Below, piece after piece: positions 1-43,169 of a stretch of 64,000 nucleotides of DNA. The DNA comes from Lindgomyces ingoldianus (taxonomy: Eukaryota; Ascomycota; Dothideomycetes; Pleosporales; Lindgomycetaceae): contig NW_022985174.1 of NCBI RefSeq assembly GCF_010093535.1, positions 488,103-552,102 on the forward strand, read 5' to 3'. The position numbers and the translations under genes were made by a program. Position 1 is the stretch's first letter. Each line of letters begins with the position of its first letter. The notes beneath the pieces are model-generated. The model was not told the DNA's origin. It saw nothing but the letters and a program-made list of their open reading frames with translations, and made no database searches.

Positions 1-312
1 ACGGGGTCGTGCCGCAGCGTGCTCGAGGGCCATACCGACATCGTCAACGCCGTCGCCTTCTCGCCAGACGGCCAGTATATCCAAACAGATTGCGGTAATA
101 TTCCTTTGCACTCGCCTAATACGTCATCGCCCTCGTTCCAACCAGCGCAACTGTCTCATTTCTTTGTACAAGACGAGTGGGTTTCTTCGAGCGAACAGCA
201 GTTGCTATGGCTTCCTTCTGAATATCGACCAACTTGCGCTACAGTCAACAGAAACGCAGTCTTTTTAGGGCATTCTTCAGGTCATACTACGTTCCTTAAA
301 TTTCATACATAG
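1..312 (+). CDS. C-terminal end of a NACHT/NLR-type WD40 protein (partial, cut by window edge)
   Basis: The frame is open from base 1 and ends at TAG 310-312. It begins with a classic high-identity fungal WD40 unit (LEGHTDIVNAVAFSPDGQY) and continues into the non-repeat tail usual for HET-E/NWD proteins: a hydrophilic stretch, then WLPSEYRPTC and a closing hydrophobic segment with GHSSGHTTFLKF. In this family the N-terminal effector and NACHT domains precede a WD40 sensor array, and the proteins act in fungal self/non-self recognition. Only the last repeat and the tail are visible, so the effector type cannot be known. No in-window start codon is claimed. Confidence 0.8.
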   Translation, partial: TGSCRSVLEGHTDIVNAVAFSPDGQYIQTDCGNIPLHSPNTSSPSFQPAQLSHFFVQDEWVSSSEQQLLWLPSEYRPTCATVNRNAVFLGHSSGHTTFLKFHT

Positions 313-12881: not shown

Positions 12882-13882
12882 AACGAACACTAATTATGAG
12901 CCTAAATAGTAGTGAAATCTCCATCTGGCTTCCGTGATGACTATAGCAGCAATTCATGTTAGATAGGGCCTATCTACCTAGCAGACAAAGAGTTACTTTT
13001 CCAAATTGCTTCTCTGTAACCGTTCTTTTGGATAGTTACTTCCTGTATACTGGGAGTAGTGGCAGGAGGAACAGGAAGTAACATTAATGTGCCAGAAAGT
13101 AACAGTCTTGCTGGGGAAGAACAGGCAACTCACAACACTAAGCTTGGCGTATGCATTGAACAATTTTCATTGATTCTATATGCGCCGCCCACCCCTTCGC
13201 CCGTCCGCCCACAAACCATCCCACCTCCCTCCAACTCTATGGAATTCCTTTATACTTGGGAGTCGGCAAATACCCCTTTCATGAAGACCATTGATGCACT
13301 ACACAAAACTTGGATTATATCCCAACATGCAATCCAACATTCAGTGAGTGAAATATTGCGTGCCGTTGGGAGATATATGATAGTTGTACATATAATGTGC
13401 AAGGATAGTACCCCATTTAGCACCTAGCCAGCAGTTTTTGTCGTCCCGAACTCGTGAAAGCGGATCGATCCTAGGTTTCGAGAGCCGAATCCCGCAGGAT
13501 CCTGTAGGATTTCGTTGAGTTCGGCAAGTGTAGCTAGGTATATCCGGTGGGCATGCCTTTTACATGGATGGGACACGGGAAGTGTCCATATGTTTGGTCT
13601 AAGTTGAGATTCCAGAATGCAACCAGTGCAGCAACCGTTCGCCTCGAGTACTTGTATCGATGCTACTAACTGTCCAAGCAATAGAGGCTCGCCTATCGCA
13701 CATGACATATGAACAAGAAGCTGCTAGTACCAAGTACCTGGAGGGCACGGTAACCCCGATAAATAGGGCGAGATACATGACTTTTATCCGCATTTGGAGT
13801 ACAGTTGCTAGGCCCATTAGGCGGAGGTTACCCAAACATCAACGTATCCGCTTCATTAACCCCTCGCACCGCAGCCCTATAG
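12882..13882. other. Intergenic, no gene seen
   Basis: A 1.0 kb stretch between the 3' ends of the CorA-like and HeLo-E2 genes. Short open frames here lack ATG starts, conserved motifs or usable splice joins. Confidence 0.5.
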
Positions 13883-15430
13883 TTATGGTAATAAGTTTCT
13901 TTGTCTAATCGTATCTACTTCTTTGGCGCATAATTCTAAGCACCTATCAATGACATCCGGGGTAGGATTGATGTCCCTAGCAAATTGCTGAGTATACTTT
14001 CGCGCACATTCTTCGTATAAAGCCCGGTTGCGTATATACTGCTCCGCAATTTCTGGAACCAGTGGGTCCTCGAGTCCTGGATCCACTAGGAGTGAAGTGA
14101 GAGAGATCAACACGGCCTGTAGATGAGAATGAGGACCCCACGCATTGGCGAGAACATCTACGCAAATCTCGCCGCTAGCATTGATGTTAGGATGGTAGAC
14201 ACGGGTGAGAAACCTGAACGATGGGGGCTTGAAGGGATAGCCTTCTGAGACTATGATCAGGAGGTGGAAGATGCCGCCGTGGTATGGTGAACCAGGTGGT
14301 CCTTCTATGCTTCCAAAGAGGAATCGCAATTTTCCTGCAATCGAATGCAAGTTGAAATACAGCAGTGGCTCACCCTTTCTGACTATTTCCAATTCCTTGG
14401 CCAACCTCTTCCATGTCTTAACAGAAGTACTAGGTGGCCCAGAAGCGAAAACCTCGGGGAAATCAGCGGCCTTTCTATCAAATTCGTCGAGATACAAACG
14501 ATTTATCAGCCTGCCCACGGATGAGGTATCGATGGGCAGGGTTGGTTGTATTGTGTTCTTGAGGGATGACTGAGCTAGTAAGTTCTCCATAATGCGCATA
14601 TGTTGAGATGAAGTGGATATAGAAGGAGAAGGTTCGTCAAAGTTTTGAATTGGGGGAAGCGGCATATGGGACTCGAGCGCTGTCTGGTATGATTCGGAGG
14701 TGTGTTCGGTGTCGGGGATGGAATAGAGATCGCGATTTTCCCTTCGTGCGCATGCTGAACCTCTTATGCTGCTCAAGTGAACGCTCGCAGTATCAGATAC
14801 GACATCAACCGAGCCAACACGAGAAGCTTCGATGATCTCAAGTGTTTCAGTGTCAGAAATCGATTCGATTTCGTACTGCACCAGGATCCTTTGTCGTGCG
14901 GGAACCCCAAGGTCTTTGGTAAGATATTCCAAGTCTCCAACTAAGTCGCTAGGGTGCTTGACTAAGTCGTCTAGTTTTCTCTTATCTGCCAGAGCCCATT
15001 TCGTAGCCTCCTTAAAGCCTGAATGTTTGGTGCTTTTGCGAAGTCGTTCTTTTACAGCAGTCCAAGACCACCGAGCTGCAGTCCCTCGTAGCAGCACATT
15101 GGCGGCCTTCTCCGTCGGATCTGTCTCGTACGATTCAATAACGGTAATTCCCGAGTCCAAGACAAGCTTTATACTCCACAGAGTACGCTCGATGTTCGGT
15201 TTGAATTGGGCGTCGTCTAGTTGGGGATCGTATCCATTTGGATATCCAAGCCCACATGCTTCGCCCCATTTCGTGAATCGTAGCTGCTGATTACTGAACT
15301 TTGTCGTTAGAATGAGTAGGTCTCGCTCTATATTCCGCCCACATTGGATGAGTTCGAAGCATTGCACGCAGGACATGAAGATACCGGGGAGGCTGATAAC
15401 AACTGCTCCTGCACTGAGGGGGTCTTCCAT
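13883..15430 (-). CDS. HeLo-domain / ubiquitin-conjugating enzyme (E2) fusion protein
   Basis: A single exon of 515 aa. ATG 15430 begins MEDPLSAGAVVISLPGIFMS, the typical start of a HeLo (HET-s N-terminal, prion-inhibition/propagation) domain; upstream in-frame codons show no such signature. HeLo features run to about residue 200 (CVQCFELIQCGRNIERDLL, RFTKWGEACGL). A Ser/Thr-rich linker (~205-330) leads to a UBCc domain at ~335-485: GPPGSPYHGGIF, GYPFKPPSFRF, the HPN triad at 413-415, catalytic Cys423 in GEICVDVL, WGP at 431-433, and DPLVPEIAEQY. These match UBC4/UBE2D-type E2s, so the enzyme looks competent for thioester formation. A helical tail follows (486-515). HeLo domains mediate membrane-targeted cell death in heterokaryon incompatibility; joining one to an E2 suggests ubiquitin transfer tied to an incompatibility or stress signal, which is inference. 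It is divergent from the desaturase. Confidence 0.87.
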   Translation of the reverse strand: MEDPLSAGAVVISLPGIFMSCVQCFELIQCGRNIERDLLILTTKFSNQQLRFTKWGEACGLGYPNGYDPQLDDAQFKPNIERTLWSIKLVLDSGITVIESYETDPTEKAANVLLRGTAARWSWTAVKERLRKSTKHSGFKEATKWALADKRKLDDLVKHPSDLVGDLEYLTKDLGVPARQRILVQYEIESISDTETLEIIEASRVGSVDVVSDTASVHLSSIRGSACARRENRDLYSIPDTEHTSESYQTALESHMPLPPIQNFDEPSPSISTSSQHMRIMENLLAQSSLKNTIQPTLPIDTSSVGRLINRLYLDEFDRKAADFPEVFASGPPSTSVKTWKRLAKELEIVRKGEPLLYFNLHSIAGKLRFLFGSIEGPPGSPYHGGIFHLLIIVSEGYPFKPPSFRFLTRVYHPNINASGEICVDVLANAWGPHSHLQAVLISLTSLLVDPGLEDPLVPEIAEQYIRNRALYEECARKYTQQFARDINPTPDVIDRCLELCAKEVDTIRQRNLLP

Positions 15431-16126
15431 AGAACCGAAAGGGACATGAGCTATGCAAGCACGATCTGGTACGAAAGATAATGGGTTCTCTGAGGGTTTG
15501 GCGAGGAAAGTAAGGAATACGTGCAATGGAATATGGGCAGCTGAACTCGAAGTCTCCTCGGATGGGGAAGTGGTTGTGGCTAAGGTGCAGCCGCCGTCGC
15601 CATCGCTTGGCTGGACTGCGCCACCTGTATTAGATACTGGCCAATGAAGACTTACTCCAGTCGAGCCTCCATAGTGCAAGAATCTACAGTTTAACGACAA
15701 CTACAGTGTTGGAGGAGAGCCAACGTCATTTGAATGCGGCAATTGGAGAAGCCTGAAAGTCCAGATCACCAACAAAGGGACTTTGAGGGGGTTATATGTT
15801 AGTGAGTAAGGATGAATCTGCACGCTGCTCAAGTTAGAAGGGTTGGTGGGTGATTGTGTCACCAGATGTGAGAATTCATGCATCGTCGTGGGGGGGATAG
15901 GAAGGCGAAATATTCACCGCCAAAAGATTCACAGAGAGGGTTGTGGTGGGTTGGCCTTTCACTCCTACGATCAGCCTATCACCGCGCGATTCTCGCCCCA
16001 CGCTTGCCCAATTAGCGTGCCAAGCCTAAGTATCGCCCAGAACGAACTCCTCGACCTTTTTTTTGCCGTCCATATTCCATAACCACCACCCTCTTATCCC
16101 TCTCAAATAGTTTTCTGGCGGCTACA
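15431..16126. promoter_or_regulatory. Divergent promoter region (HeLo-E2 / desaturase)
   Basis: 696 bp between opposed start codons with no supported gene. Both genes must have their 5' control sequences here. No clear TATA box was found. Confidence 0.4.
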
Positions 16127-17389
16127 ATGCGATCACCCGTCGCTGTCACGCCCGAGAAGCCGGCCAAGAGCGTCCTGGCAGCCGCGCCGCAGGAAGAGGA
16201 GGATGCGAAGAGCTTCGTTGCATCCGACCATGACCGCTTTTTCTGGACATACACCGAGGAGCCGCACCGGACGAGGCGTATGGCTATAATCAAGGCCCAC
16301 CCCGAGGTACTGTAGCTCCCTATACTCTCAACCCGCTATACTAACCATTGTTTCGCCTAGGTTACGAAACTATGTGGTCCCGAGCCTCTGACTAAGTACC
16401 TTGTTGTCTTCGTCGTTTCCCTTCAGGTACTCTGCGGGTTCCTTCTTCGAGACACGCCCATTATATCATGGCCATTCTTCCTCACAGCATACGTCATCGG
16501 AGCTACAGCGAACCAGAATCTCTTCCTCGCGATCCATGAAATATCACACAACCTGGCGTTCCGGAGTCCACTCGCAAATAGGGTGTTTGCGGTATTCGCA
16601 AATCTGCCAATTGGCATACCTTATAGTGCATCATTCAGGGTGAGTATCTTGCGTTGGACTTGAAAGCGGCGAAGCTAACTGGAGTAGCCTTATCACCTCA
16701 CACATCACAAATCTCTTGGCGTTGACGGCCTCGATACCGATCTCCCTACTCCTCTGGAAGCCATCTTCCTTGATTCTGTCCTAGGGAAAGCCTTCTTCTG
16801 TACTTTCCAAATCCTTTTCTATGCTATCCGCCCCATGTTTGTTTATAATCTCCCTATCACGAAGACCCACCTGTTCAACATTGCCGCCCAATTTGCTTTT
16901 GACTATGCGTTGGTCAAGTTTTTCGGGGGGCATGCATTAGCATACATGATCATGAGTTCCTTCTTGGCAGGATCCCTACATCCCTGTGCTGCTCATTTCA
17001 TCGCCGAGCACTATGTCTTCGAGAAGCAACCCGCCGCAGCAAGAGACCCATCCAACAAGGTCCCTCTTCCAGAGACCTTTTCCTACTACGGACCACTGAA
17101 TATCCTAACATACAATGTTGGCCTCCATAATGAGCACCACGACTTTCCTGCTGTGCCCTGGACAAGACTACACGCGCTTAATCGCATTGCACATGAGTTT
17201 TACGATGAGCTACCAGCTCATAAGAGCTGGGTATATGTGATTTGGCAATTCATCTGGGACAAGGACGTTAGTCTGTGGTGTCGCGTTAAGAGGAGCGAAG
17301 GTGGGCGGAGGGTCGGTGGAGGCGGTGGCTGGAATGAGGAAGAGCTGGGTGCGAATGAGAAGAAGGGTCCCATTCCCGGAGTTAGATAG
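16127..17389 (+). CDS. Sphingolipid delta(4)-desaturase (DES family)
   Basis: Three exons, 16127-16306, 16361-16639 and 16688-17389 (introns 54 and 48 nt), 386 aa. The N-terminus has the DES-specific HDRFFWTYTEEPHRTRRMAIIKAHPEV. The three membrane-desaturase histidine boxes are present: HEISH (119-123), HLTHH (156-160) and HNEHH (300-304), with the hydrophobic helices of an ER multi-span protein between them. The enzyme introduces the delta-4 trans double bond into dihydroceramide (here probably for glucosylceramide synthesis), using O2 and cytochrome b5. The C-terminal ~35 residues are Gly-rich and variable. All catalytic motifs are intact, so I expect a functional gene. Confidence 0.93.
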
Positions 17390-42150: not shown

Positions 42151-43169
42151 ATGACTCCCCTTCAGCGCCGGCCGATGCAGCACATCGATCGCAAGGACCT
42201 CTACATTAACCTTGAGGCGCGAATCCAGTATTTGCACTCATTCCTCGACTTCAGCTCCAGTAAGTACTCAGTCCTGCATGGATTCCCATGCTTTCGTGTG
42301 ACCCTCGCTCACCTCGCCTAGATGACATTGAGGCTCTCATCACTGGTAGCAAGTACATCAAAGCGCTAATCCCCGCAATCGTAAACATTGTCTACAAGAA
42401 GCTCCTCCAATATGACATCACGACCCGGGCGTTCGAGACTCGCTCTACCTCGTACGAAGGACCTGTCGACCCGAATCTTACCGAGAACTCACCACAAATT
42501 CTTCACCGGAAGATGTTCCTGCGTGGCTACCTGAATAAGCTATGCAGCGATCCAAGTAGAATGGAGTTCTGGGAATACTTGGACAAGGTTGGGATGATGC
42601 ACGTCGGCCAAGCACGAATTCACCCACTTCATATCGAGTATGTCCATATTGGAGCGACGTTGGCCTTCATCCAAGACGTGCTCACCGAAGCCATTCTCTC
42701 GCACCCACGACTGAGACTGGACCGGAAGATTGCGCTCGTGAAGGCTTTGGGCAAGGTCATCTGGATCCAAAACGATCTCTTCGCAAAATGGTACGTCCGC
42801 GATGGAGACGAGTTTGCAGACGAGGTCATCATTCCCGAGATCGAGCGTGAGGGGTACTTACATGGAAAGAAAATTCTACACGATGGCAGTGAGAGCGAGA
42901 GCGAAGCGGAGTCTGCGGAGTCTTCAGGAGGGTGTCCGTTTAAAGGAATGGCAGTGAACACGAATGGTGGAGATGTTGCTGGGATGACAAGAAACATGGG
43001 CAGGATGAACGTGCGAGAGAATGGAAATGGTGGATCGAATGCCGAAGCCTCTCGGAGCAATATTGCGTCACCTGCACAACCTGCTACCCCAACTCCCACG
43101 CCTGCATCGCCAAGCCCGAAACCGTTTGTTTCCAGCGCGATCCCGCGACCTACCGGCGGCAGCCCATAG
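42151..43169 (+). CDS. Protoglobin-domain heme protein with disordered C-terminal tail
   Basis: Two exons, 42151-42259 and 42322-43169 (62-nt intron), 318 aa. Residues ~10-215 are a protoglobin / globin-coupled-sensor fold: HIDRKDLYINLEARIQYLHSFLDFSSNDIEAL, then VGMMHVGQARIHPLHIEYVHIGATLAFIQDVL, in which His130 is the likely proximal heme ligand, and ALGKVIWIQNDLFAKWY. No methyl-accepting, cyclase or other effector domain is attached; residues 225-318 are acidic-Ser then Pro/Thr/Ser-rich. A lone GGCPFKGM motif (Cys241-Pro242) sits at their start. Protoglobins bind O2, CO and NO and may act as gas sensors. The fungal role is unknown. Confidence 0.87.

Follow-up and report, generated by a model that had tools for sequence, protein, structure and literature searches.

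A HeLo domain joined to a Ubc4/5-type ubiquitin-conjugating enzyme in one predicted protein of Lindgomyces ingoldianus

Results

Gene and reading frame

The window, i.e., the whole 64,000-nucleotide stretch that was analyzed, carries on its minus strand a gene for a protein with a HeLo domain and a ubiquitin-conjugating (E2) domain. Its features, and the nearest NLR gene, are as follows:

13883..15430, minus strand: HeLo-E2 gene, 515 codons plus stop, readable without any intron (based on translation, ORF list, Pfam, and full-length relatives)
15329..15430, minus strand: hydrophobic N-terminal segment, residues 1–34, corresponding to the stretch of HET-S for which membrane entry has been reported
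14756..15430, minus strand: HeLo module, residues 1–225 (Pfam HeLo at 11–199 plus an extension matching HET-s up to residue 224)
14420..14755, minus strand: linker, residues 226–337, of low confidence at 230–272 and then with short predicted helices; motifs SYxTA (247–251) and QxxRxM (276–281)
13976..14419, minus strand: Ubc4/5-type E2 domain, residues 338–485
14186..14194, minus strand: HPN motif, residues 413–415, kept in 64 of 65 family E2 domains
14162..14164, minus strand: codon of catalytic Cys423, kept in 63 of 65 family E2 domains
13883..13975, minus strand: C-terminal helix, residues 486–515, and stop codon; some relatives are longer (proteins of up to 872 aa)
1..312 and upstream (L062:5230-9415), plus strand: 3' end of an NLR gene of the PigL_N/SesA-like–NACHT–WD40 type

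The frame opens with an ATG at position 15430 and runs down to 13883 without a stop, so that the translation and the ORF list bear out the uninterrupted 515-aa frame described in an earlier sequence-only reading of this DNA. Upstream of this ATG, an in-frame stop is reached after 273 bases, with no other in-frame ATG on the way. Two intron-like patterns occur within the frame, and splicing one of them out would delete the conserved EIESISD segment. A repeat scan of positions 13000–16200 gave only short, weak repeats, and the protein had no match in NCBIfam. From base composition alone, the chance of a 515-codon open frame is about 8e-12. A chance frame or a merger of two genes was ruled out by the uninterrupted frame, these odds, and the two-domain relatives; two genes read as one are unlikely in particular because the nine best database relatives have both domains. 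An artefact of any such kind, whether a pseudogene or two genes read as one, is hardly credible against a single frame open throughout, relatives that match over nearly the whole length with about 50% identity, and 57 database proteins with both domains.

The HeLo half

The N-terminal 200 residues match HeLo in a profile search (Pfam PF14479, E 3.5e-33, 115.6 bits versus a curated cut-off of 23.2), confirming the proposed HET-s/HeLo-type N-terminus. Structure prediction likewise returned both the HeLo and the E2 fold expected from the earlier reading. In the full-length model (pTM 0.52), the relative pose of the two domains is not fixed. Since VIA-align on this model gave E2 chains only, and was thus uninformative on HeLo, the HeLo part was folded apart; its predicted structure showed the HET-s/HET-S HeLo fold.

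HET-S residues 1–34 have been reported, in the part of the source consulted, as the membrane-entering segment (PMC3531502). The window protein reaches a Kyte–Doolittle maximum of 1.87 over 19 residues in its N-terminus, and values of at least 1.6, a measure of hydropathy only, were found in 41 of 42 sequences, the window protein included. Position 33, where H33P renders HET-S non-toxic according to the passages seen (PMC3531502, PMC3321046), is never proline (0/43). At position 23, the family has E, Q, or D, whereas entry 2wvq names an alanine there in its title (D23A, P33H). The position equivalent to HET-S E86, whose change to K is described in the text available as abolishing incompatibility (PMC3531502), is Q, S, C, A, or H in all 43 sequences. 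These sets of 42 and 43 sequences include the HeLo-only proteins P0011, P0012, and P0053. A RHIM-like pattern matched in 4/65 sequences, each time at residue 28 within the first HeLo helix, and these matches were regarded as fortuitous.

Linker and tail

Within the linker, residues 230–272 have a pLDDT below 50, and helices were modelled at 276–288 and in short stretches between 307 and 329. SYxTA-like and QNxRxM-like motifs recur in 61 and 50 of the 65 family members, respectively; these patterns are loose, some matches are perhaps due to chance, and some rows are truncated. The HET-s prion-domain family was absent among the Pfam matches of the window protein at E-values up to 1, and a scan with the known sigma-type amyloid patterns gave matches in 0/65 family members. 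With linker and tail lacking a known amyloid motif in both kinds of search, the amyloid part of the amyloid/NLR signalling once proposed for this protein gained no support, although a motif of a new kind may be present.

The E2 half

Pfam UQ_con matches residues 342–479 far above the cut-off (E 1.3e-34), and the predicted E2 fold has both HPN and the catalytic cysteine. The UBC4-like E2 was thus read correctly from the sequence, with HPN and Cys423 in place, WGP at residues 431–433, and DPLVPEIA at 455–462. The window protein also keeps the YPFKPP loop of Ubc4, which contacts E3s. Identity of the E2 domain to the best 50 structures is 37–44%. Within the family, the active-site motifs persist even though identity with the E2 of the window protein goes down to 36%. 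By these features the E2 half looks like a working, catalytically competent enzyme; kept motifs do not prove turnover.

The E2 domains of the family group with Ubc4/5 rather than with other E2 classes in a sequence tree of 93 rows and 146 columns, for which 13 of 26 non-family matches were used and 17 rows were derived from 36 matches in the same genome, 15 of them being kept. A branch of 79 rows (65 HeLo-E2, 12 Ubc4/5-like, and 2 from the same genome) has support of 93/91; inside it, the 65 HeLo-E2 rows plus P0084 reach 98/91 and the HeLo-E2 rows alone 70/90. The family thus adjoins Ubc4/5 (UBE2D), with which it shares the E2 fold, HPN, the cysteine, and DPLVPEIA; it differs in the fusion to HeLo and linker and in 21–27 extra residues beside the active site, after the cysteine, in 28 of the 65 members, 26 of which also have a loop shorter by three residues. 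Extra residues and a mostly cut loop before the active site characterize the Sordariomycete branch, and ordinary use of E3s may be altered in those members.

The E2 domain could also serve mainly as a bait or guard. Immune proteins often gain sensors as extra domains; here an intruder or foreign allele interfering with host E2s would act on the displayed E2 and free the HeLo killer, catalysis being secondary. The remodelled active-site surroundings would fit, as would the close relatives P0023 and P0027, in which arginine replaces the catalytic cysteine and the E2 domain is still kept. However, with cysteine and HPN so widely retained, conservation seems to exceed what a bait would require, and we judge this explanation quite improbable.

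Two further E2 loci of the genome were seen. A 781-aa frame on the minus strand (L063:2339-4684; G000:C56) combines a U-box (E 6.5e-21), VWA (3.4e-7), and, truncated by the end of the frame, an E2 domain (1.5e-24), uniting E3-type and E2 domains in a single fungal protein. A Ubc4-like E2 copy (L042; G000:C6:1096798-1097016) has no cysteine at the catalytic column of the matched row; it is possibly an inactive paralogue or a wrong frame at an exon edge.

Relatives and co-inheritance

A database query for proteins with both domains, as the earlier reading had suggested, yielded 57 by precomputed annotation (50 of 60 matches and 7 more from a further search), and a Pfam rescan of ten relatives found both domains in all ten. 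The nine best relatives (P0002–P0010) share 43–51% identity, are 505–598 aa long, and all have both domains. With the HeLo half alone (residues 1–230) as query, 12 proteins were retrieved, nine with E2 and the three HeLo-only proteins, which may reflect true loss of the E2 or gene models that were split. As judged from sequence, the pairing occurs across several classes of filamentous fungi; sources include Xylographa (Lecanoromycetes) and Trypethelium subeluteriae (Dothideomycetes). In P0050 (Paramyrothecium foliicola), HeLo-E2 is followed by C-terminal ankyrin repeats and a Cys-rich tail that by eye resembles a small zinc finger.

Divergence of HeLo and E2 was correlated over 49 proteins (Mantel r 0.83; 0/1000 permutations as high), with the signal coming mainly from close relatives (r 0.30 among 900 distant pairs), and mostly reflects shared descent. 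Three of 52 HeLo-E2 rows were left out of this comparison for their short HeLo parts. As the halves diverge together and the E2s cluster in one group, the two domains have stayed together as a pair. Of the two halves, HeLo is the better conserved in the nine nearest relatives (57–67% versus 45–53% identity for E2), and the reverse holds for the remaining relatives with enough HeLo to compare. In the HeLo tree, which includes rows from 10 of 12 loci taken from 18 other HeLo matches in the same genome, the HeLo halves do not form one clade, and other HeLo proteins stand between two HeLo-E2 groups under a weakly placed midpoint root; a single clade (49 HeLo-E2 plus the three HeLo-only proteins) was not rejected (p-AU 0.41).

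Genome setting

Six-frame profile searches, exon by exon, of the genome (G000; 68.4 Mb, 99 contigs) gave at least 19 HeLo, 36 E2, 69 NACHT, 37 NB-ARC, and 122 NPHP3_N matches. They revealed no second locus with HeLo and E2, though a gene cut by introns could escape. Other HeLo proteins of this genome carry DUF7580 (L014, L017, L020; L016 below the cut-off) or LisH domains, one has a weak kinase match (L015), and others lie near NLR-type NTPase matches. In the LisH protein (L010:1267-2517, plus strand; C-terminal LisH, E 8e-5), the segment after HeLo resembles that of HeLo-E2 by eye.

NACHT, NB-ARC, and NPHP3_N profiles had no match within the window. The nearest NLR-type match (C13:484873-485394) belongs to the NLR listed above, whose WD40 part was recognized by eye, whose repeat stretch is partly masked as N, and whose last frame ends at about base 312, some 13.6 kb from the HeLo-E2 gene; the interval contains a 2OG-oxygenase, an abhydrolase, a CorA-like gene, and an ORF that belongs to no family. 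Direct NLR pairing of the het-S/nwd2 kind is thus not seen at this locus in this genome, and the suggested link to a nearby NLR found no adjoining gene to rest on. Pfam scans covered 16 other window ORFs of at least 200 aa and one of 184 aa, where genes of short exons may escape; the Pfam-matching neighbours are ordinary genes. One window gene (42288–43169, plus strand) encodes a Protoglobin domain (E 1.1e-48) in a fungal genome.

Elsewhere in the genome, six of the 18 other HeLo matches have an NLR-type NTPase match no more than 0.8 kb away (C1, C3, C6, C20, C21, C27). Three are near NACHT/NPHP3_N on divergent strands like het-S/nwd2 (C1 ~35500, C6 ~2051600, C27 ~435600), and three are on the same strand, resembling HeLo-NLR genes (C3 ~1410200, C20 ~792600, C21 ~476000). 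Several HeLo pieces of these six loci contain stop codons.

This setting would suit a plain membrane-anchored E2, in which HeLo only tethers or assembles the enzyme for some housekeeping role of ubiquitin without link to death or non-self: a single HeLo-E2 locus was found, the window has no NLR-type NTPase match, the protein no amyloid motif, and the neighbours are ordinary. Against it, the hydrophobic N-terminus and the C-terminal HeLo helices used in the HET-S switch are conserved, and presence of HeLo-E2 may be patchy, because the HeLo table of Podospora anserina, in the part of the paper available, lists Rho, Pkc-like, P-loop, and prion-domain partners and no E2 (PMC3689799). A housekeeping role of this sort seems distinctly unlikely.

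Discussion

HeLo followed by a second domain is known, and E2 as the partner is undescribed in the literature searched. No paper describing the fusion was found among titles and abstract beginnings of open-licence literature, and it goes unmentioned in the available parts of fungal NLR-effector surveys and of a fungal cell-death review from 2025 (PMC9815663, PMC12258605, PMC4986451, PMC12881547, PMC3321046, PMC3531502). Both Pfam accessions co-occur in one paper, in the portion seen only as separate rows of one table. Domain databases already list both domains on HeLo-E2 proteins; the statement that no function is described for the architecture agrees with this partial literature. Overall, the sequence-only reading stands for the domains, the motifs, and their fusion, and found no support in this genome for the amyloid and adjoining-NLR route.

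The closest comparison is HET-S/HET-s of P. anserina, the HeLo-PFD protein of the het-S/nwd2 pair, with the same HeLo, hydrophobic N-terminus, and C-terminal helices through HET-s residue 224. HeLo-E2 differs in having a linker and a Ubc4/5 E2 where HET-S has its prion-forming domain, and in lacking a known amyloid motif and an adjoining NLR gene. Fungal HeLo-DUF7580/kinase-like proteins and HeLo-NLRs likewise have an N-terminal HeLo, but continue toward the C-terminus with a DUF7580/kinase-like part or an NLR NTPase instead of an E2.

Because both the active site and the hydrophobic N-terminus are kept, both halves are probably in use. We favour, at a little under an even chance, a reading in which HeLo carries an active E2 to the membrane and clusters it, so that ubiquitin is transferred where HeLo assembles. 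The protein would be a HeLo-family member with a Ubc4/5-type E2 behind a linker in place of the HET-S prion-forming domain, and its HeLo module would stay soluble until some trigger frees the hydrophobic N-terminus. The freed HeLo would dock and assemble on the membrane, concentrating E2 that E1 has charged with ubiquitin, and this clustering would drive transfer to neighbours and possibly to the HeLo bundle too. Several observations weigh against this reading: arginine instead of the catalytic cysteine in P0023 and P0027, the residues at position 23 and at the equivalent of HET-S E86, the weak joint divergence among distant pairs, the loose relative pose of the domains, the HeLo-only relatives, and the HeLo tree. 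A non-self or stress setting would follow from general HeLo biology by analogy. During incompatibility in P. anserina, according to the sections consulted, seven of nine HeLo genes are up; the genes induced in both P. anserina and N. crassa show an enrichment of ubiquitin-degradation domains (PMC3689799).

If the HeLo bundle itself were the substrate, ubiquitin might act as a brake in cis that restrains, removes, or re-routes the activated protein. Residues 1–225 offer 14 lysines, and MLKL, with the related animal domain, provides a precedent: in the text available, K63 chains on its HeLo domain direct it to endosomes, and a K50R mutant is more necroptotic (PMC8816944). However, that ubiquitin is placed by a separate E3, ITCH, as far as the same source was seen (PMC8816944), the second domain of animal and plant MLKL is a kinase fold and not an E2, and the model leaves the pose of E2 on HeLo unfixed; a brake of this kind is rather unlikely.

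Beyond membrane-localized transfer, HeLo-E2 might form a class of fungal immune or allorecognition effectors in which membrane assembly of the death bundle switches on the attached E2, making attack and ubiquitin signal one act, and in which the Sordariomycete branch may bypass ordinary RING E3s; this is conceivable but doubtful. HeLo/MLKL-type bundles are a death module common to fungi, plants, and animals, and ubiquitin controls MLKL. In the HeLo-E2 family, a ubiquitin enzyme appears hard-wired onto such a module, with its active site kept over long divergence, so that a handful of point mutants, made in a laboratory fungus, could test whether membrane attack and ubiquitylation are coupled.
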